A DNA stretch of 31,613 nt from a virus. Below are positions 5,780-14,732 of this stretch, piece by piece (within the stretch, counting starts at the first letter, position 1; every line of letters starts with the position of its first letter). The notes under the pieces are model-generated. The model was not told the origin of the DNA. It made no database searches and worked only from the letters and a program-made list of their open reading frames with translations. The translations under genes were made by a program, and so were the position numbers. The stretch spans positions 1 to 31,613 of the IMG/VR virus record IMGVR_UViG_3300029448_000221, one strand, 5' to 3'.

Positions 5780-6169
5780 ATGGACAACATGGGTAGCGGA
5801 CGTTTTGGCGGCGACATGGACAGAAATGAAGTCGAGATGGACCTTAATAAGTTTATGGCCATGATACAAGAAATAGGTGAGCTTAAAGACAAAATCAGAG
5901 AACTAGAGGATGTGAAAAACGTAAATCCTCATCAAAAATGGATTCATTTAGCACAAGCTGTAGATGCATGGAGAATATTTCCAAGAGCATTTTTGACTGT
6001 GTATATTATATTACTATACACAACTGTAATGTGGTTTATGGATTTAGAAGCACCAAACTTTGAACAATCAGGTCTAATATCTGTGGTAGTTGGAGCTGGA
6101 GCTGCATGGTTCGGATTATATGCAGGAACATCAGGAGCATCAAAAAGCTTTAAAGGCGAAGATAAGTAA
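5780..6169 (+). CDS. Small membrane protein with coiled coil, holin-like
   Basis: A 129-residue protein with strong RBS (GAGGAG). Residues 1-50 are charged and helical (DLNKFMAMIQEIGELKDKIRELEDV). Two hydrophobic segments follow, about residues 73-90 (FLTVYIILLYTTVMWF) and 98-117 (LISVVVGAGAAWFGLY), then a short basic tail. Two membrane passes with a charged soluble domain fit a holin or holin-associated protein, and similar proteins are common in marine phages. I cannot exclude a general membrane or structural role. One-base overlap with the next gene suggests an operon. Confidence 0.6.
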   Translation: MDNMGSGRFGGDMDRNEVEMDLNKFMAMIQEIGELKDKIRELEDVKNVNPHQKWIHLAQAVDAWRIFPRAFLTVYIILLYTTVMWFMDLEAPNFEQSGLISVVVGAGAAWFGLYAGTSGASKSFKGEDK

Positions 6170-6462
6170 TGGAAATATTTGACCTTATTGAAAAGGTCGG
6201 ATTACCTATAGCAGGTGGTTTGGTTATGGGTTATTTTATATTTTTAATTATGAAGCAGCTTATGGACAACTTGGTTGACGATATAAAAACCATACAAGGC
6301 ATAACAAAAATGCTTATCACGAGAGCTGCAATAATAAACAATGACATGATACGAATGGACACTAGCGTTTCTAGTGCTTTAGGTATCAGACCAAGCTTAG
6401 ACAGAATTGCTAGAGCAGAAAATTTTGTTGAAGACGGAAAAATAGACGCTAGAAGAGATTAA
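6169..6462 (+). CDS. Small single-pass membrane protein (paralogue A)
   Basis: A 97-residue protein starting at the TAATG overlap with the previous gene. It has an N-terminal hydrophobic segment at about residues 12-31 (GLPIAGGLVMGYFIFLIM), then a helical region with NNDMIRMDTSVSSALGIRP and a charged tail. The next gene encodes a product of similar size and layout beginning MEIIDLVEQFG against MEIFDLIEKVG here, with a matching DMIR motif, so the two look like tandem paralogues. BhlA/UviB-type holin-like proteins have this architecture, but I cannot place it in that family with confidence. Confidence 0.6.
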   Translation: MEIFDLIEKVGLPIAGGLVMGYFIFLIMKQLMDNLVDDIKTIQGITKMLITRAAIINNDMIRMDTSVSSALGIRPSLDRIARAENFVEDGKIDARRD

Positions 6463-6749
6463 TGGAGATTATTGATTTAGTAGAGCAGTTTGGCTTCACT
6501 ACTATCATGGTTGTTGGGCTTGGTTATTTTGTTTATTTTGTATGGCAAACAATATCGAATGTTATTGACCCAGCTGTTTCAGAAATGAAAAGCACAATCA
6601 TACGCTTGACCGACCAACTTAGACTGCTTGACCAAGATATGATACGCTTACAACAGAAAGTAAATACTGTTTTAGAATTACAAGAAAAAGAGGTCATAAA
6701 TGAAAAAGAAAATGACAAAAAAAGAACGCGAACAAGAAGAACTAAGTAA
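6462..6749 (+). CDS. Small single-pass membrane protein (paralogue B)
   Basis: A 95-residue protein with N-terminal hydrophobic segment at about residues 12-30 (TTIMVVGLGYFVYFVW), a coiled-coil region with LLDQDMIRLQQKV, and a very basic C-terminus (KKRTRTRRTK). It starts at a one-base overlap with paralogue A and resembles it along its length. Its last 50 bases overlap the start of the csgF-like gene in another frame. Function unknown; holin-like or membrane-scaffold roles are possible. Confidence 0.6.
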   Translation: MEIIDLVEQFGFTTIMVVGLGYFVYFVWQTISNVIDPAVSEMKSTIIRLTDQLRLLDQDMIRLQQKVNTVLELQEKEVINEKENDKKRTRTRRTK

Positions 6750-7212
6750 ACAGAGAATAGCTTGGGCAGCAATGCTCGTAGGCATATTTTTTATCATAGT
6801 AATTTTTGTGCAAGGCATAAAAGCAGACCAAATAGTTCATAAGTTCAAAAACCCAAGTTTTAGTGGCATTAATACATCCTCACATTATTTGACGATTGAA
6901 AATCAAGAGTTTAATCGCAAGATGAGTATTAAAGAAGAAATTAAAGCCATACAAGAACAATTAGAAAGAGACAAGGAAAACACCACTCTTGCAAGATTTA
7001 TAAGAAATTTAGAGTCAAGAATTTATGCACAATTATCACGACAGCTTGTAGAAAATTTGTTTGGAGAAACTCCTAGTACATCAGGTGTCTTGTCGTTAGA
7101 AGGAAACACTATAGAATACAGTATTGAAAACGATATTATAACTTTGAAGATTACTGATGCTGATGGAAATATTACCGAGATACAGTTGCCTATTGGCGAT
7201 TTTGCTTTCTAG
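6700..7212 (+). CDS. csgF: CsgF-like curli assembly protein
   Basis: A 170-residue protein with a signal-peptide/anchor segment at residues about 20-42 (charged n-region, then AWAAMLVGIFFIIVIFVQ, with KA|DQ as possible cleavage site). The mature start, QIVHKFKNPSFSG, lines up with the mature N-terminus of E. coli CsgF (FQFRNPNFGG), the segment known to plug into the CsgG barrel and form its second constriction. Downstream, RNLESRIYAQLSRQLVENLFGE matches the CsgF helix with FTQAIQSQIL, and ITLKITDADGNITEIQLP matches its C-terminal strands. In bacteria CsgF anchors the nucleator and fibre at the CsgG pore on the cell surface. The n-region is unusually long and charged. Start supported by GAGGTC upstream. 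The csgG-like gene follows, overlapping by 56 bases. Confidence 0.85.
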   Translation: MKKKMTKKEREQEELSKQRIAWAAMLVGIFFIIVIFVQGIKADQIVHKFKNPSFSGINTSSHYLTIENQEFNRKMSIKEEIKAIQEQLERDKENTTLARFIRNLESRIYAQLSRQLVENLFGETPSTSGVLSLEGNTIEYSIENDIITLKITDADGNITEIQLPIGDFAF

Positions 7213-7978
7213 TTGTAGTTCATTATCTGTAAATGACGCAATCGTAAAAAACAAAACATTACCTAATGTTTTAGAAATACAATCAGAAGAATTATTACAA
7301 GTACCACAACCAAAAGCACCAATTGTGGTTGCTGTTTATCCTAACAGTTTTACAGACCAAACAGGACAACGTAAAAGTAACAGTGAATTTGCTTTATTTT
7401 CTACAGCACTAACCCAAGCACCAAGTCATTTGCTAATTAGAAGCCTAAAACATACCGCTAATGGTAAGTTTTTTAGAGTTGCCGAAAGAGTTGGTTTGGA
7501 CAATTTAACAAAAGAAAGGCAGCTAATACGTTCAGCCAGAGAACAAAACGAAAAGTCTGATGGACCCAAACCAATAATGCCATTACTTTTTGCAGGTGTT
7601 TTGATGGAAGGTGCTGTTATTGGTTTTGACACAAATATTAAAAGCGGTGGTAGAGGTGCTAGATATTTAGGCATAGGAACAAGCACTCAATACAGAGTAG
7701 ACAATATAACAGTAGCACTAAGGATGATTTCTATAGCTACAGGAGAAGTTTTGATAGATGTTTTAGTAAGTAAACAGTTGTATAGCTATGGACGGTCACA
7801 AGACGTTTTTAGGTTTATAGAATCAGGAACAGAGTTAGTAGAAATAGAAACAGGTGATGCTGAAAACGAGCCTGCAACCCTAGCATTACAAAAGGCTATT
7901 GAGGAAGCTGTTTTGCAAATCGTTAAAATAGGGTATGATAAAAATTTCTGGGAGGTTAAAGATGAAAAAACTAATTAG
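7157..7978 (+). CDS. csgG: CsgG-like curli secretion lipoprotein (outer-membrane pore)
   Basis: A 273-residue protein, close to E. coli CsgG (277). It has a lipoprotein signal ending LLSSC, lipidated Cys at residue 20. Family motifs are clear: VVAVYPNSFTDQTGQ (57-71), GLDNLTKERQLIR (113-125), GAVIGFDTNIKSGGRGARY (152-170) leading to LGIG, ATGEVL (194-199) and NEPATLALQKAIEEAV (237-252). CsgG forms a nonameric ungated outer-membrane channel through which curli subunits leave the cell. In the constriction loop Phe56 of E. coli is kept (F81 in FSTA) but, by my alignment, Asn55 is Leu and Tyr51 is not Tyr. ATG at 7157 or 7163 are both possible; no strong RBS, so coupling to csgF translation is likely. 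Overlaps csgF by 56 bases and the curlin-like gene by 17. Confidence 0.93.
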   Translation: MLMEILPRYSCLLAILLSSCSSLSVNDAIVKNKTLPNVLEIQSEELLQVPQPKAPIVVAVYPNSFTDQTGQRKSNSEFALFSTALTQAPSHLLIRSLKHTANGKFFRVAERVGLDNLTKERQLIRSAREQNEKSDGPKPIMPLLFAGVLMEGAVIGFDTNIKSGGRGARYLGIGTSTQYRVDNITVALRMISIATGEVLIDVLVSKQLYSYGRSQDVFRFIESGTELVEIETGDAENEPATLALQKAIEEAVLQIVKIGYDKNFWEVKDEKTN

Positions 7979-8669
7979 TTTGTTGTTACTAACCCCAACG
8001 GTAATTTTTGCAGCTGACAACGAAATATATGTTGACCAATCAGGTGCTACAGCAAATATAGATTTAGAACAACTTGGTTCAGGTAATATTATTGGCGGTC
8101 TGTTAAGTTCAGCAGGCAGCATGAATCCATTAGATTTAGATGGCATTACTATGACTTTAGATATAAACCAAATAGGTGACACTAATAAATTTTTAGGTGA
8201 TATTCTTGGAGATTCTGTAACAGGTTTTTTTGAGTTTGATGGTGATTCTAATACTTTTACTATACAAGGCGACCCAACAAACACTTATGGAATTGATAAT
8301 TCTAACTACAACGTGGACGTAACAGGTAGTACAAATACCTTTACATTAGACCATGGAACTACAGCACTAGCTGCAACATTAGATTTAGATTGGGTAATTA
8401 ATGGTGATGGCAACACATTTGATTTTGATATTAACTATGATGGTGCTACAAACTATGTAGATGTTGACGGTGATAGCAATACAGTTAATTTTACAGGTTC
8501 TGGTTATGCAGGTGGATATTTCTATTTAGACCAAACTGGCAATTCAAGGACTTTTAACATTACACAATCGAGTACATTAGATAATGACTGGCTTAAGATT
8601 ATATCTAACGGTAATAGTGGTACTGTTTGCGTCATTCAAAACGACCAAGGTACAAGCACTAGCTGCTGA
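7962..8669 (+). CDS. Secreted curlin-like repeat protein, putative substrate of the CsgG pore
   Basis: A 235-residue protein starting at 7962, chosen for the strong RBS GGGAGG and the signal peptide MKKLISLLLLTPTVIFA|AD. An upstream in-frame ATG at 7935 would spoil the signal. The mature part is beta-rich and Asn/Asp/Gly/Thr-rich. Curlin-type QxGxxN occurs at residues 37-42 and 70-75, and the shorter GxxN core recurs at 94-97, 122-125, 148-151, 161-164 and 170-173. Canonical CsgA/CsgB repeats keep Gln at both strand ends; here most are Asp, Val, Ile or Tyr, so this is a divergent curlin-like protein, not textbook CsgA. Two Cys (223, 235) near the C-terminus could form a disulfide. Position right after csgG makes it the obvious export substrate. 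Its last 86 bases overlap the next gene. Confidence 0.7.
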   Translation: MKKLISLLLLTPTVIFAADNEIYVDQSGATANIDLEQLGSGNIIGGLLSSAGSMNPLDLDGITMTLDINQIGDTNKFLGDILGDSVTGFFEFDGDSNTFTIQGDPTNTYGIDNSNYNVDVTGSTNTFTLDHGTTALAATLDLDWVINGDGNTFDFDINYDGATNYVDVDGDSNTVNFTGSGYAGGYFYLDQTGNSRTFNITQSSTLDNDWLKIISNGNSGTVCVIQNDQGTSTSC

Positions 8670-9696
8670 TATTGGAGACATATCTGAGTTAAACGGTTTT
8701 GCTCAAATAGTAAGAGACAAACCTTACGAAGCTAATTTAAAATTTGCTATTCGCAGCAATGATGAGGCTATTACTACTAATGGTAGAATGGCTATTACCT
8801 TCCTTGATGACTCTACTGTAAAACTTACCGAACATTCACAATTATTAATTGATGAATATATATATGACCCTGACCCATCTAAATCAAAGATGGCACTTAC
8901 TTTTGGATTAGGTACAGCAAGATTTATTACAGGTAATTTAAATCGCATAGATAAACAAAATATAAAACTTAGCACTCCTACTGCAAACATAGCTATAAGA
9001 GGCACAGACTTTACAGCCACAGTAGATGAGCTTGGACGCAGTCTTATAATCTTGTTACCTGATGCCTTAGGCTTATCTAGTGGTGAGATAGAAGTTGTTA
9101 CAGCCACAGGTAGTGTTTTGTTAAATAAGCCGTATCAAGCTACAACAGTAAATGTGTTTGAAAACCCACCGAGCAAACCTGTAATTTTAGATTTGTCATT
9201 AGATATTATTGACAATATGCTAATAGTTTCACCACCAAAAGAAGATATCCAAGCTGAAGAAGAAACAGCAAGCACTAAAACAGTTAATTTGTTAGATTTC
9301 AACGATTTAGATATTGATTACCTTAACGAAGATTTTTTAGAGGATAGTGATTTAGAATTTACAGAACTAGACATAAACTATCTTGACGTAAATTTTTTAG
9401 AAGATTTGTTGGACGTGCTTGATACATTAGCTGTAGAAGAGGAAGAAGACCAACTTGGATTGGCTACTCGTGTAAACATATCTGGAACTCTTATAGGCCA
9501 AGATACCAATACACAAATAACCACAATAGTGACAGGACAAACCATAAGCCTACGCAGACAAGTAAGCGAATCGGCTAGGGTTGATTTAAATGCAAGTGAT
9601 GGGTATACCGTAATTTTAATTCAAGACGGAGTTTCTAATATAATCAAAATAAACGGTGGTGGAGATAGTGTTATTAAAATCACACAAAGTAATTAA
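8584..9696 (+). CDS. Secreted FecR-domain protein with acidic repeats and curlin-like tail
   Basis: A 370-residue protein. Residues 1-27 form a signal peptide (LYLTVIVVLFASF core, ALA|AD site), encoded wholly within the overlap with the curlin-like gene. Residues about 36-150 are a FecR domain: RSNDEAITTNGRMAITFLDD, then GTARFITGNL and TPTANIAIRGTDF, the family's best-conserved block. Then an Asp/Glu-rich region with two 20-residue-spaced copies, LDIDYLNEDFLED (242-254) and LDINYLDVNFLED (262-274). The C-terminal 75 residues are beta-rich and include QDGVSN (347-352), which fits the curlin QxGxxN motif. FecR domains occur in periplasmic signalling proteins and in secreted proteins, often near CHASE2 cyclases; here such a cyclase lies two genes on. 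A sensor partner or surface role is inferred. Confidence 0.8.
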   Translation: MTGLRLYLTVIVVLFASFKTTKVQALAADIGDISELNGFAQIVRDKPYEANLKFAIRSNDEAITTNGRMAITFLDDSTVKLTEHSQLLIDEYIYDPDPSKSKMALTFGLGTARFITGNLNRIDKQNIKLSTPTANIAIRGTDFTATVDELGRSLIILLPDALGLSSGEIEVVTATGSVLLNKPYQATTVNVFENPPSKPVILDLSLDIIDNMLIVSPPKEDIQAEEETASTKTVNLLDFNDLDIDYLNEDFLEDSDLEFTELDINYLDVNFLEDLLDVLDTLAVEEEEDQLGLATRVNISGTLIGQDTNTQITTIVTGQTISLRRQVSESARVDLNASDGYTVILIQDGVSNIIKINGGGDSVIKITQSN

Positions 9697-9754: not shown

Positions 9755-11377
9755 ATGAAAGTTTTAAGTTTATTTGATGGTATGAGTTGTGGTCGTATTG
9801 CATTAGACCGTTTGGGCATACCTGTAGAAAAGTATTATGCAAGTGAGATAGACAAGTATGCTATTCAAGTAAGCCAAGCAAATTATCCTGATATTATTCA
9901 GGTCGGTGATATTTGTGACTTAGACCCTAAAGACTACATGGATGTAGACCTTATGCTTGCAGGAAGTCCGTGTCAGGGATTTAGTTTTGCAGGAAAACAG
10001 CTTGCTTTTGATGACCCAAGGAGTGCCTTGTTTTTTGAGTTTATTCGGTTGCTCAAAGAAATAAAACCAAAGTATTTCTTGCTTGAAAACGTAAGAATGA
10101 AAAAAGAGTTTTTGCAAGTTATATCAGAACAAGTGTCTGACTGTTATCCTGAGATACCTTTTGGTATTGAACCTATTTTTATAAACAGCTCACTTCTTTC
10201 AGCCCAATCAAGACAAAGATATTATTGGACTAACATACCAAACGTACAACAACCTGAAGACAAAGGTATAGTTTTGCGAGACATACTAGAAACAGAAGTT
10301 GATGACAATTTAGATAAAATGACAAGCAAAGAGGGTAAAGCACATTGCTTGACTGTAAGTTATACAGGTGCTGTGCCATGGAACAGCATAGAAAAAAGGC
10401 AAAGGACTATGGTGCCTGTCAACAAACCAATTAAGGTTGGCATGAATGTAGAACAGGTAAAGGTAAGAAAACATCAAGTTCATATTGAAAGTCTTAAATG
10501 GCTTTTGCGAACCATGAAAGCCAATAGTGGCAAAACTAATAAACAAATAGCTGAAGAAACTAATATGCCTGTTACTAAGGTCGAGCATTGGTTTAGAAAC
10601 GACAGCAGTTTTGCTATACCAAGTGATGATATTTGGCTTAAGCTCAAAGAAGTTTTGGGTCTTAACACCGATATATTTGATGCACAGATTATGGAGTTTG
10701 AGTATCGTGACGGTGTGTATGAAAGCAAACAAAGAGTATATAGCGAAGAAGGTAAGTCACCTACGCTGACAGCATCAAATAAAGACCAATACATAGAAAC
10801 CAAGCCTAAACAAGTAGGTGTTGCAGTAGATATAAACGGACATGACATACTCAAACGAGTCTATAGTCCTGATGGCAAGTCGCCCACAGTAACAGCTTGC
10901 AGTGGTGGTAACAATGAGCCTAAGGTTGTGACAGGTGGTGCTTTTCGTGGCAGAGCTTATAATAAAGACGGCAAACGCATGGACAGAGACGGTAGTTCTG
11001 TAGCCAATAAAACCAAACAAATGCTTGAGCTTAGAAGAGATAACAAATCAAACGCTATTACTACAGTAGGTAAAGATAGTGTTGTTACGGTGCAGTCTTA
11101 CAACAGAAAAGACGGATTAGGTAAAGAATTAGATAAAGCACACACATTAAATGCATCTGATTGGCGAGGATTAAACAGAAATCAAAACCAAAATGCTGTA
11201 GTAACTAATGATGGTGGTGACTTACATTGGCGTAAACTAACGCCCTTAGAATGTGAACGACTACAGACAGTTCCAGATAATTACACTAATCATGTGTCCA
11301 ATACACAGAGATATAAAATGCTAGGCAATGGTTGGACGGTAGATGTTATATGCCATATATTTAAAAACATGGAATGA
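9755..11377 (+). CDS. Cytosine-C5 DNA methyltransferase with large inserted recognition region
   Basis: A 540-residue protein with C5-methyltransferase motifs: I LSLFDGMSCGRIAL (4-17), IV GSPCQGFSFAG with catalytic Cys73, VI LLENV with Glu111, VIII QSRQRYYW, and the C-terminal IX/X block LTPLECERLQTVPDNY and KMLGNGWTVDVI. Between VIII and IX lies about 280 residues, much longer than usual, containing an HTH-like segment (NKQIAEETNMPVTKVEHWF, about 261-279) and repeats of the form YSxxGKSPTxTA (two clear copies, near residues 330 and 370, then weaker ones). This insert probably holds target recognition. It would methylate phage DNA for protection against host restriction or to alter gene control; no restriction partner is seen. 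The stop overlaps the cyclase start by four bases (ATGA), so the two are co-translated. Confidence 0.93.
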   Translation: MKVLSLFDGMSCGRIALDRLGIPVEKYYASEIDKYAIQVSQANYPDIIQVGDICDLDPKDYMDVDLMLAGSPCQGFSFAGKQLAFDDPRSALFFEFIRLLKEIKPKYFLLENVRMKKEFLQVISEQVSDCYPEIPFGIEPIFINSSLLSAQSRQRYYWTNIPNVQQPEDKGIVLRDILETEVDDNLDKMTSKEGKAHCLTVSYTGAVPWNSIEKRQRTMVPVNKPIKVGMNVEQVKVRKHQVHIESLKWLLRTMKANSGKTNKQIAEETNMPVTKVEHWFRNDSSFAIPSDDIWLKLKEVLGLNTDIFDAQIMEFEYRDGVYESKQRVYSEEGKSPTLTASNKDQYIETKPKQVGVAVDINGHDILKRVYSPDGKSPTVTACSGGNNEPKVVTGGAFRGRAYNKDGKRMDRDGSSVANKTKQMLELRRDNKSNAITTVGKDSVVTVQSYNRKDGLGKELDKAHTLNASDWRGLNRNQNQNAVVTNDGGDLHWRKLTPLECERLQTVPDNYTNHVSNTQRYKMLGNGWTVDVICHIFKNME

Positions 11378-13140
11378 AGAAGTTAATAGCACCAATACTC
11401 ATAATACTAGCCCTACCGCTAGTGTTTCAGTCTGTACCTACAGAAATATTAAAACTTAAAACATTTGATGCTTTAGTCAAAGAACAAGAGCCAAGCGGTA
11501 ATTTTGTTATTTTAAACATATCAGAAGAAGACGTAAGAAAGCGTGGCGGTTTTCCCTTTCCAAGAAGAGATTTAGCACAAATACAAATAGACCTAATCAA
11601 CGAAGGTGCTTTAGGTATTGGGTGGGCGTTATCATTTTCAGAAGCTGATAGGTTTGGTGGTGATGATGCTTTCGCACAAACACTAGGTTTTTTGCCAAGC
11701 GTATTAGCAATGTTCGAGACACCTAACGGTCAATACCCAAAAACAGTTGGCACCGTAATAAAAGGCGATGAGGTTGGCGGCATACCAACAGCAGGCGTAG
11801 TTGAAAACATAGACGTGTTAAAACAACAAAGCTTTCAAGGTATTGCTACAGCACCTGTGGATGTAGATAATCTAGTGAGACGCATACCTTTGTTGATGAA
11901 AACACCTGACGGCTGGACACCTAGCTTTGGCACAGAAATACTAAAAGCACTTACAGGCACTAGGTCGTACATAATTACTACCAATGCAAACGGCATACAG
12001 GAAATTGCAGTAAGACATTTACCGCCTGTAAAAACAGATAACTTTGGTCGTAAATGGATTAGTTGGGTCAACACACCCACAACAACATTAGATGAAATGA
12101 ACGTAGCAGGTAAGTTTGTAATTATTGGTGTCACTGCTAACGGTGTAATGCCACAAGTAGCTACTCCTGTAGGATTGTTAGAGCCACATAAGATACAAGC
12201 AGCATTAGCAGAATCAATCCTGATACAGGACTCTCCTATGATACCTGAGTGGTCTATAGCTGCTGAAATGCTCATTTTTATCATATCAGTAAGCCTTATA
12301 TGGCTTGTAATTGCATATTTTGGTATAACCCTAGGAGTTGCACTAGCGTTAGTAATAATGCTTTCTACGGCTTTAGGTGGCTATTACGCAATACAAGCAG
12401 GTGTATTAATAGATGTAACTTGGTCTTTAGTATCACAATTTATCACCGGGTCTATAGGTTTTTACCTTAGATTTAGAGAACAATACAAATTAAGACTACA
12501 AATTAAAAAACAATTTGAGCATTACCTTGACCCAAGACAAGTGAAACAATTACAAAAAAATCCAGAGTTATTAAAGCTTGGCGGAGAGAAAAGAAGATGC
12601 ACTTTTTTGTTTACAGACTTGCGTGGCTTTACAGCATTAAGTGAGTCCGTAGAGCCTGAAAAAGTGACATACATTATGAATAGAGTTTTAACAGCTCAGG
12701 TTGAAGCAGTGCAAAAATACAACGGTTGCATTGACAAATTTATCGGTGACGCAGGCATGTACATCTGGAACGCACCTTTAGATGTAAAACATCACGAACA
12801 AATAGCTTACGAATGTGCATTAGAAATCATAGAAAATGTTAAAAAAGTAAGCGATGAATTAGTAGCAGAAGGATTGCCACCTGTAGCAATAGGCTTAGGA
12901 TTGAATACCGGTGATGCAATAGTTGGTAACATGGGCAGTAAAACACGGTTTGATTATTCTGCTATAGGCGATGCTGTAAATACAGCTGCAAGACTAGAAT
13001 CAGCCACAAAAGAAAGAAATGTAGATATTTTAATAGGCGAAGAAACAGAAAAGTTTTGTGGTTATAAATTAAAAGTGTTAGAATCTATCAGGGTTAAAGG
13101 AAAAGAAAAACCATTAAAAATTTATACAAAACATTTATAA
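11374..13140 (+). CDS. CHASE2-domain membrane sensor fused to class III adenylate cyclase
   Basis: A 588-residue protein. An N-terminal hydrophobic segment (5-20) leads to an extracytoplasmic CHASE2 domain (about 25-290) with GFPFPRRDLAQ, IGWALSFSEADRFGGDDAFA and FVIIGVTA. Three transmembrane segments follow (about 297-316, 318-337, 345-365), then a class III cyclase domain (about 405-588). Metal ligands D415 (FTDLRGFT) and D459 (IGDAG), ATP-specifying K455 (DKFIGD) and D527 (RFDYSAIGD), and the transition-state pair N536/R540 (VNTAAR) are all present. It should therefore be an active adenylate, rather than guanylate, cyclase, making cAMP in response to a periplasmic signal. CHASE2 ligands are unknown. 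Start is fixed by the ATGA overlap with the methyltransferase. Such receptors are ordinary in bacteria; I know of no common phage counterpart. Confidence 0.93.
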   Translation: MKKLIAPILIILALPLVFQSVPTEILKLKTFDALVKEQEPSGNFVILNISEEDVRKRGGFPFPRRDLAQIQIDLINEGALGIGWALSFSEADRFGGDDAFAQTLGFLPSVLAMFETPNGQYPKTVGTVIKGDEVGGIPTAGVVENIDVLKQQSFQGIATAPVDVDNLVRRIPLLMKTPDGWTPSFGTEILKALTGTRSYIITTNANGIQEIAVRHLPPVKTDNFGRKWISWVNTPTTTLDEMNVAGKFVIIGVTANGVMPQVATPVGLLEPHKIQAALAESILIQDSPMIPEWSIAAEMLIFIISVSLIWLVIAYFGITLGVALALVIMLSTALGGYYAIQAGVLIDVTWSLVSQFITGSIGFYLRFREQYKLRLQIKKQFEHYLDPRQVKQLQKNPELLKLGGEKRRCTFLFTDLRGFTALSESVEPEKVTYIMNRVLTAQVEAVQKYNGCIDKFIGDAGMYIWNAPLDVKHHEQIAYECALEIIENVKKVSDELVAEGLPPVAIGLGLNTGDAIVGNMGSKTRFDYSAIGDAVNTAARLESATKERNVDILIGEETEKFCGYKLKVLESIRVKGKEKPLKIYTKHL

Positions 13141-13145
13141 AATAT

Positions 13146-13328
13146 ATGGCAACAACAAAAGAAGCAATCAGCAAAATAGAAGCACACGAAAGAGAGTGTA
13201 CAATTAGATACGCTAACATCGAAAAAAGACTTGAAGACGGCTCAAAGCGTTTTGATAAACTAGAAACTATGATATGGGCTGTATATCCGTTTATCTTACT
13301 TTCTGTGGTTTTATCTAGGTTTGTGTAG
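13146..13328 (+). CDS. Holin-like small protein with C-terminal membrane segment
   Basis: A 60-residue protein with a charged helical N-terminal part (IEAHERECTIRYANIEKRLEDG) and a C-terminal hydrophobic segment (WAVYPFILLSVVLSRF). This tail-anchored coiled-coil layout resembles XhlA-type holin-associated proteins and single-pass holins. It stands directly before the spanin and lysozyme genes, which supports a lysis role. No strong RBS is visible; the gap to the cyclase stop is five bases. Confidence 0.6.
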   Translation: MATTKEAISKIEAHERECTIRYANIEKRLEDGSKRFDKLETMIWAVYPFILLSVVLSRFV

Positions 13329-13567
13329 TGGAAAAAACACTTGCATTGCTGAAACATGCAATCGAAGTAGTAAGCAATTATTTATTTCCCAAATATAAAA
13401 TTACAGTTTCATTTAATAAAGAATATGGCGACTCTGATGACAAAATTTACATATCAAAAAAGATTGTGACAAAAAAAGAAAAACATCTTAAATTTAAAGA
13501 TGAAGATGACAAAATTGTAGAATACAGAAGTGCATCTGGTCTTAATTACATTATCGAGGATGTCTAA
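13328..13567 (+). CDS. Small hypothetical protein in lysis region
   Basis: A 79-residue protein read from a GTG that overlaps the preceding TAG by one base (TAGTG). It has a helical N-terminus and a charged beta-rich body (KIYISKKIVTKKEKHL), no membrane segment and no motif I recognise. Its stop overlaps the i-spanin start region (TAATG), which supports translation in the lysis operon. Confidence 0.5.
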   Translation: MEKTLALLKHAIEVVSNYLFPKYKITVSFNKEYGDSDDKIYISKKIVTKKEKHLKFKDEDDKIVEYRSASGLNYIIEDV

Positions 13568-13962
13568 TGCAACAATTTTTATTGGCAATTATTCTTACTC
13601 TTTGTTTTACAAGTTACTACTTATATAACCAAAATAAAGTTCTTACAGCAAACAATCTTGCTTTAGAAAACGCAATTGCAACACAAGAAGAAACAATCAA
13701 ATCACTACAAAACGATTTTGAATTACAAACTACACAACTAAATGCATTATCTCTAAAAAGCCAAGCGGCACAAAGAGAGCTAAACAGGTATGTTACTTTT
13801 ATACAAAATTATGAATTGTCTGCAAAAATATTAGCAGACCCGGTTGAAATGGAAAGGAAAATTAATAATGGCACAAAACACATTATGGAAGACATCGAAA
13901 AGCTTAGCGTTGTTGTTGACAGTCTTGATGATGGCGAGCAGCTGCAGTCTGCTACCAACTAA
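13567..13962 (+). CDS. i-spanin (Rz-like inner-membrane lysis protein)
   Basis: A 131-residue type II membrane protein with an N-terminal hydrophobic segment (residues 3-20, FLLAIILTLCFTSYYLY) and a long periplasmic coiled coil (about 25-90). It ends with DPVEMERKINNGTKHIMEDIEKL, a pattern seen in Rz-type i-spanins. The o-spanin is encoded in another frame over its 3' end, the classic Rz/Rz1 arrangement. Together they fuse inner and outer membranes after the lysozyme has cut the cell wall. Start at the TAATG overlap. Confidence 0.78.
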   Translation: MQQFLLAIILTLCFTSYYLYNQNKVLTANNLALENAIATQEETIKSLQNDFELQTTQLNALSLKSQAAQRELNRYVTFIQNYELSAKILADPVEMERKINNGTKHIMEDIEKLSVVVDSLDDGEQLQSATN

Positions 13963-14254
13963 ACAGATAGAAGTCAGTGCTAAGCCAATTGAACGAAAGA
14001 TAGCACACCCTGTCATGCCAAGAGAAATAGACTTGCGTGAACCTATGTGGATTGTGGTTACACCATCTAATTACGAAGAACAGCTCGCTAGAATAGAAAA
14101 ACAAGAAGGAGAATTATTATTTTTAGCTATGACCATACCTGATTACGAGGTAATGGCATACAACATGCAAGAATTAAAGAGATATATAAATGAACTTAAA
14201 GAAGTTGTTGTGTACTACAAAACTATTACAACACCAAAACCTGAGGAGAAGTAA
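13868..14254 (+). CDS. o-spanin-like outer-membrane lipoprotein
   Basis: Start placed at the ATG at 13868 (RBS AAAGGAAA) rather than the upstream ATG at 13844, because it gives a clean signal peptide: KTSKSLALLLTVLMMASSC, with lipobox-type Cys at residue 26 (a weak box, Ala at -3). The mature part (KPIERKIAHPVMPREIDLREPMW, then EGELLFLAMTIPDYEVMAYN) resembles a conserved marine phage protein found with lysis genes. It overlaps the i-spanin 3' end by 95 bases in another frame and precedes the lysozyme. At 128 residues it is longer than typical Rz1. Confidence 0.7.
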   Translation: MAQNTLWKTSKSLALLLTVLMMASSCSLLPTKQIEVSAKPIERKIAHPVMPREIDLREPMWIVVTPSNYEEQLARIEKQEGELLFLAMTIPDYEVMAYNMQELKRYINELKEVVVYYKTITTPKPEEK

Positions 14255-14255
14255 A

Positions 14256-14732
14256 ATGCAAATATCACAAAATGGAATAAATTTGATTAAATATTTTGAG
14301 GGCTGTCCTACAGATGCAGACGGCAACGTAGTAAGTTATCGTTGTGCTGCTAATAAGCCTACAATAGGCTATGGCTCCCTAAAACTTATAGACGGCAGTC
14401 CTGTAGAAGATGGTATGAAGATAAGCAAACAAGATGCAGAAAACTTACTAGCACACGAATTACACGAGTATGAAGGTTATATTAATGACATGGTTGAGCC
14501 TGATTTAAAACAAAACGAATTTGATGCATTGGTATCATGGGTGTTTAATTTAGGGCCTTCAAACCTAGCTGCAAGCACTTTGTTAAAAAGGCTAAACATG
14601 AAAATGTGGAATGATATACCAAACCAAATAAAACGCTGGAACAAGGTCGGTGGCGTACCAAATGAAGGCTTGATGAAAAGAAGAAACGCGGAAGCCTTAT
14701 TGTTTGAAGGTAAAGAATGGGGTAAAGTCTAA
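14256..14732 (+). CDS. GH24 lysozyme (endolysin) with Cys at the catalytic Asp position
   Basis: A 158-residue protein. The ATG at 14256 follows GAGGAG and is preferred over the upstream start at 14190, which lies inside the spanin gene. It has the T4/lambdoid lysozyme pattern: IKYFEG with catalytic Glu15, PTIGYG (35-40), then a helical body with FDALVSWVFNLG and the C-terminal RRNAEALLFEG. The usual E-8-D-5-T triad is here E15, C30, T36: Cys replaces Asp at the position five residues before Thr, and a six-residue insertion separates Glu from it. T4 lysozyme remains active with Cys at this position, so activity is plausible. No signal or SAR segment is seen, so it needs a holin to reach the cell wall. 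Confidence 0.92.
   Translation: MQISQNGINLIKYFEGCPTDADGNVVSYRCAANKPTIGYGSLKLIDGSPVEDGMKISKQDAENLLAHELHEYEGYINDMVEPDLKQNEFDALVSWVFNLGPSNLAASTLLKRLNMKMWNDIPNQIKRWNKVGGVPNEGLMKRRNAEALLFEGKEWGKV

Follow-up and report, generated by a model that had tools for sequence, protein, structure and literature searches.

A curli-type secretion module with an attached FecR-domain protein and CHASE2 cyclase in an HTVC023P-type podophage

Curli genes in pelagiphages and the source of the window

Clusters of CsgF and CsgG genes in pelagimyophages were reported in 2020 (PMC7029224), and the curli genes of the methylophage Melnitz were reported in 2022 together with a lysis hypothesis (PMC9004378). In the same year, Wittmers et al. 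described the arrangement CsgF-CsgG-CsgA/B-FecR-(CsgA/B)-cyclase, which they reported worldwide from pelagimyophages and from nine HTVC023P-type podophages; viral curli proteins were present at all 65 GOV2.0 stations (PMC9599517). The blocking of rivals, aggregation, and opening of the outer membrane have already been published as proposed roles (PMC7029224, PMC9004378, PMC9599517). When Melnitz, a related phage, infected its host in culture, the cells were not observed to clump (PMC9004378).

The stretch of viral DNA analysed here (31,613 nucleotides of the IMG/VR record IMGVR_UViG_3300029448_000221, hereafter the window) had correctly been taken for a phage contig. Its TerL is 55.6–59.3% identical to that of HTVC023P, HTVC027P, and 023Pt_psg01 over 88–95% of its length, the nearest relatives being 023Pt_psg01 and DSL-LC04 (59% each), HTVC023P (57%), and HTVC027P (56%). 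By this kinship, the window belongs to an HTVC023P-type podophage, of whose expected genome of ~60 kb it is a 31.6 kb fragment, and the host, on the same grounds, is probably SAR11. Since Wittmers et al. described the module in the same lineage, the window's set is not new. The initial annotation, which saw a complete-looking system, was thus right as to its content (pore, CsgF, substrate, and a signalling pair are all present), but this is not the first sighting (PMC9599517, 2022). What is new is a reinterpretation in which FecR and the cyclase form a fibre-coupled sensor pair in the periplasm; the invariance counts and the constraint on the curlin gene given below are likewise additions to the published descriptions.

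The unit in the window runs in the order small membrane proteins, csgF, csgG, curlin, fecR, DNA C5-methyltransferase, CHASE2-cyclase, spanin, lysozyme, and terminase (Table 1). Promoter and terminator scans of the window gave signals no commoner than in shuffles.

Table 1. Features of the module and its surroundings in the window.
Feature	Position	Strand	Evidence and remarks
97-aa membrane/coiled-coil protein	6169..6462	+	phrog_18771; published as "histidine kinase"
95-aa paralogue of the 97-aa membrane protein	6462..6749	+	phrog_18771 6e-24; overlaps csgF
CsgF homologue	6700..7212	+	PF10614 2.5e-17; longer N-terminus and inserted charged/helical stretch in alignment with bacterial CsgF
CsgG lipoprotein pore homologue	7157..7978	+	PF03783 1.3e-47; lipobox-like LLSSCSS
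Curlin-like protein, putatively exported, predicted beta-solenoid	7962..8669 (ORF opens 7935); mature part about 8013-8666	+	GGGAGG before ATG 7962
FecR-domain protein, putatively exported	8584..9696	+	PF04773 in 36/36 family members
Curlin-like repeat, FecR C-terminus	9604..9687	+	Q-to-Q spacing 21 residues; profile match at C-terminus only
C5-cytosine DNA methyltransferase between fecR and cyclase	9755..11377	+	PF00145 2.5e-50
CHASE2 + predicted class III adenylate cyclase, membrane sensor-enzyme	11374..13140	+	PF05226 2.7e-27, PF00211 6.4e-18
Lysis genes (spanin + lysozyme) directly downstream of module	13567..14732	+	context only
Rz-like spanin	13567-13962	+	phrog_739 1.8e-9; context only
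Phage lysozyme	14190-14732	+	phrog_7 1.7e-50, PF00959 7.6e-36; context only

The exporter, its substrate, and the lysis genes

The initial annotation placed overlapping genes for CsgF, CsgG, and a curlin-like substrate here, and all three are found in that place on the plus strand. The first two lie far above the Pfam cut-offs, with CsgF scoring 63.7 bits against PF10614 (cut-off 25.8) and CsgG 162.3 bits against PF03783 (cut-off 20.8). A P-x-F-x-G stretch is conserved in phage CsgF when aligned with the bacterial protein; a phmmer search with phage CsgF found no match among solved structures, although Pfam PF10614 matches. The solved E. coli CsgG (PDB) aligns to the window CsgG over almost its full length (E 1e-46), and identity to the CsgG of the myophages HTVC008M and Melnitz is 40–43%. 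Another CsgG, with 39.5% identity to the query, comes from the 1499-base record OR851715 of Salmonella phage S.Kent 1-2-1, which is probably host DNA wrongly labelled as phage.

CsgE (PF10627) is absent from the window, as had been claimed, and equally from HTVC008M, Melnitz, 023Pt_psg01, and two curli-bearing roseobacter MAGs. Since these MAGs possess CsgG and curlin, the absence of CsgE is no defect of the phage set, and CsgE is not a defining part of the type VIII (curli) secretion system. It has been suggested that an open, CsgE-less pore serves the infected cell for the uptake of nutrients or siderophores (PMC7029224, PMC9599517), with which the missing CsgE agrees. The two roseobacter curli sets, however, indicate that an open uptake pore cannot be concluded from a missing CsgE, and CsgF, curlin, and FecR invariably accompany CsgG, so such a function appears highly improbable.

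The likely start of the curlin gene is ATG 7962 (MKKLISLLLL...), with GGGAGG 6 bases upstream, and the encoded N-terminus is a signal-peptide-like leader. The earlier description of the product as a QxGxxN/GxxN repeat substrate stands in part. GxxN occurs 9 times versus 3.1 in shuffles (P 0.0012), and the extended motif GxxN-x-[FIVLY]-x-[FIVLY] 6 times versus 0.23 expected, a number reached in 0 of 5000 shuffles. The protein has homologues in the first curlin of each of two myophages, gp16 of HTVC008M (E 4e-16) and its Melnitz counterpart (E 2e-14); the Melnitz curlin passes the Pfam curlin cut-off. In the window protein itself, no Pfam family exceeds its cut-off, PF07012 reaching only 10.2 bits (cut-off 20.7), and just two strict QxGxxN motifs occur; amyloid formation is therefore uncertain. 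AlphaFold2, run on an alignment of 36 homologues, predicts a regular beta-solenoid (pLDDT 85.4, pTM 0.82), that is, a repetitive fold rather than a globular non-repeat one. Neither a missing CsgF match nor a globular third protein, the outcomes that would have spoken against the initial annotation, was thus obtained. Among predicted viral folds, the closest carry the name "Curlin associated" (TM 0.73–0.78), while a PDB fold search with the model returned generic beta-helices only, and the sequence profile gave only chance matches to solved curlin structures.

A single query with the window CsgG retrieved 352 relatives from IMG/VR, and an alignment query at least 570. Among 112 distinct CsgG loci examined, each gene being counted in the loci with room to show it, curlin is present in 99/99, CsgF in 95/95, FecR in 93/93, a small membrane protein before csgF in 85/85, and the cyclase in 71/71. 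The genes are under purifying selection, with median pairwise dN/dS values (Nei-Gojobori counts for pairs with dS 0.15–1.2, to be read as rough) of 0.086 for curlin, 0.107 for the membrane protein, 0.115 for FecR, 0.116 for CsgG, 0.152 for CsgF, 0.19 for the cyclase, and 0.234 for lysozyme. The curlin gene is the most strongly constrained in the module and is not decaying; its lowest dN/dS speaks against a relic.

The curlin-like protein is probably exported and displayed during infection, accompanied by FecR in the periplasm or at the surface, and with the CHASE2-cyclase as a sensor. The main rival to surface display holds that the CsgG-CsgF pore has been repurposed for lysis timing as a gated or pinholin-like pore of the outer membrane, with curlin as a plug or a secondary component. 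In the window, the module is followed immediately by the genes for spanin, lysozyme, and terminase, and lysozyme comes after it in 20 of the 34 loci with room. Timing of lysis was proposed for Melnitz (PMC9004378), partly from an absent substrate, yet Melnitz has curlin-repeat genes. In myophages, moreover, tail genes rather than lysis genes come after the module. CsgG works in the outer membrane and so cannot replace a holin, which belongs to the inner membrane. Finally, a pore-only role neither predicts nor explains that curlin is always present and the most constrained gene; we consider a lysis pore unlikely. Shortly 5′ of the spanin gene, the window (13146-13328) encodes a 60-aa protein with a C-terminal TM, XhlA-like by eye and a possible holin, for which Pfam gave no match.

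The FecR-domain protein, the cyclase, and their bacterial relatives

The last 86 nt of the curlin gene also belong to fecR, and in 190 of 200 loci the two genes share 86 or 92 nt. The protein is composed of a secretory-type leader, the FecR domain directly after it, an acidic linker, and a beta-rich C-terminus; neither an anti-sigma family match nor a cytoplasmic anti-sigma N-terminus was found among 36 members. Phage FecR thus appears to be exported to the periplasm or the outer membrane. Within its last 30 residues, Y314, Q320, I337, I339, and Q341 (mature numbering) are invariant in 36 sequences, and the Q-Q spacing of 21–22 is that of the curlin repeat; the same holds for HTVC008M and Melnitz. 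The tail scores 15.7 and 19.4 against curlin profiles, versus at most 11.7 for 200 column shuffles and at most 7.6 for other FecR windows, except a neighbouring window that overlaps the tail (13.2/14.2). The HHalign probability is 3–8%, which is low because the stretch is short, so that the profile comparison supports a curlin-like C-terminus but does not prove it. The AlphaFold2 model of the protein is of too low confidence for use (pLDDT 59, pTM 0.39).

The phrog_18771-type proteins encoded before csgF measure 92–117 aa across loci and have one N-terminal hydrophobic stretch (KD max 2.1 in the 97-aa protein) and a charged, coiled-coil-like tail. Judging by their position and copy number, these small genes are probably the published "histidine kinases", a label rejected here since Pfam found neither HisKA/HATPase nor any other kinase domain in them. 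A BhlA-type holin identity was also rejected, with no Pfam support.

The initial annotation's downstream signalling pair holds, being formed by FecR (PF04773) and the CHASE2-cyclase (PF05226, PF00211). The latter is predicted to be a class III adenylate cyclase with CHASE2 in which the catalytic lysine and the N/R motif are kept, K-x-x-GD occurring in 102/104 family members and (D/T)-...-VN-x-A-x-R in 98/104. In S. meliloti, CyaD1 without CHASE2 synthesizes cAMP constitutively (PMC5498481). A cNMP-binding domain is found in 5 of 78 genomes from the family of a Pelagibacter MAG (SAR11) and in none of 14 phage records; the receptor being mostly missing from both, the cAMP would have no known reader. 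Class III cyclases occur in 2 of the 78 genomes, both on contigs with a phage-type curli module.

Wittmers et al. read FecR, the "histidine kinase", and the cyclase as an iron- or cAMP-dependent circuit regulating the curli genes (PMC9599517), and PF04773 does name FecR. This published reading is difficult to reconcile with a FecR that has a secretory-type leader and no recognisable cytoplasmic anti-sigma part, with "kinases" of 92–117 aa lacking a kinase domain, and with a cNMP-binding regulator in 0/14 phage records, and we judge it improbable. As far as the sequences tell, neither "histidine kinase" nor iron-dependent FecR regulator is supported as a name for the module proteins, and two published gene names are thereby called into question.

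The methyltransferase between fecR and the cyclase, which contains an HTH-like insert, occurs in 1 of 71 informative loci, namely the window itself, and is a passenger outside the conserved module. The fecR-cyclase gap is a hot spot for cargo: in myophages it is the site of the second curlin gene, and loci L024, L054, L057, and L063 have unrelated small ORFs there.

Among 53 CHASE2-bearing alphaproteobacterial genomes, 28 FecR-type matches are no more than 5 kb from a CHASE2 gene, whereas gene counts and genome sizes would predict 0.94. FecR and CHASE2 therefore appear to be a pre-existing alphaproteobacterial gene pair. The CsgG genes of those genomes are on other contigs or far away, unlinked to FecR-CHASE2. 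The curli loci of the two roseobacter MAGs have CsgG and curlin, with CsgF recognised in one; FecR is not found beside them, and CHASE2 is absent from these genomes, like CsgE. Because bacterial FecR-CHASE2 pairs and curli loci stand apart, the phage module seems to combine two modules of bacterial origin. FecR-CHASE2 pairs use outputs besides cyclases: in a SAR11-family genome of 1.2 Mb (locus L267, 2549-7419), the gene for a FecR-domain protein lies two genes after that for a CHASE2-SpoIIE phosphatase.

CsgG itself is found in 3 of the 78 SAR11-family genomes. All three places carry the phage-type module and are therefore most likely phage contigs binned into MAGs, and host curli in this family were rejected as a candidate. 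The module is seen on SAR11-family MAG contigs L155, L156, and L232 and in other MAGs (L150-L153), with terminase and lysozyme alongside it on L156. These contigs are probably phage contigs binned as bacterial, and they could mislead studies of the origin of phage curli.

A possible fibre-sensing module and its likeness to described systems

According to the surface-display reading, the phage would express a type VIII (curli) secretion module in the infected cell. The curlin-like beta-solenoid protein would pass through the CsgG pore, and CsgF would anchor it on the cell surface. The FecR-domain protein, exported to the periplasm or outer membrane, would most likely touch the fibre subunit or its assembly with its curlin-like tail, and CHASE2 of the membrane cyclase, facing the compartment of FecR, would turn the state of the fibre into cAMP. 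The benefit to the phage would most likely be an altered surface of the infected cell (exclusion of rival phages or aggregation). The Burkholderia operon described below (PMC5192318) and CyaD1 of S. meliloti (PMC5498481) serve as precedents for the sensor pair. Against display count the weak score of the window curlin, the lack of clumping with Melnitz (PMC9004378), the cAMP without a known reader, the poor FecR model, and the short likeness of the FecR tail to curlin.

A bolder and more tentative proposal is that phages joined a curli exporter to a periplasmic FecR-CHASE2 sensor pair via a curlin-like tail grafted onto FecR, so that the infected SAR11 cell may sense its own fibre and answer with cAMP. 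If true, this would be a cAMP reply in a host family mostly without a recognisable receptor or class III enzyme. Since abundant ocean phages carry the module and it is missing from their hosts, the most numerous bacteria of the sea, infection could add a new surface structure. Viewing FecR and the cyclase as a fibre-linked sensor pair makes the question of what phage curli are for testable.

Of the systems described, the Burkholderia biofilm operon BiofilmReg (PMC5192318) resembles the phage module in that an exported FecR-domain protein is encoded beside a CHASE2 membrane sensor, in that case a kinase. The bacterial FecR-CHASE2 pairs sampled differ from the phage module by having no CsgG linkage, and the curlin-like tail is absent from all five FecR proteins examined that adjoin CHASE2 genes. 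With the csgBAC/csgDEFG curli genes of Escherichia coli, the window shares homologues of CsgG and CsgF and an exported repeat protein; it differs in lacking CsgE, in CsgD and CsgC being unrecognised, in degenerate repeats, and in the attached FecR and CHASE2-cyclase. The clusters of the pelagimyophage HTVC008M and the methylophage Melnitz (PMC7029224, PMC9004378) conserve the gene order, with FecR 36–42% and the cyclase 34–36% identical to those of the window, but after FecR and before the cyclase they have another curlin gene, a canonical one. In HTVC008M, this second curlin (gp18, 10435-11760) fuses a PA14 domain (2.7e-6) to four curlin repeats (5e-8) and has the appearance of an adhesin borne on a curli fibre. 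The closest system is the HTVC023P-type pelagiphage module (PMC9599517). The window departs from it by the DNA methyltransferase between FecR and the cyclase and by the missing second curlin gene, and agrees with it in lineage and in the order small membrane protein(s), CsgF, CsgG, CsgA/B-like protein, FecR, and cyclase.
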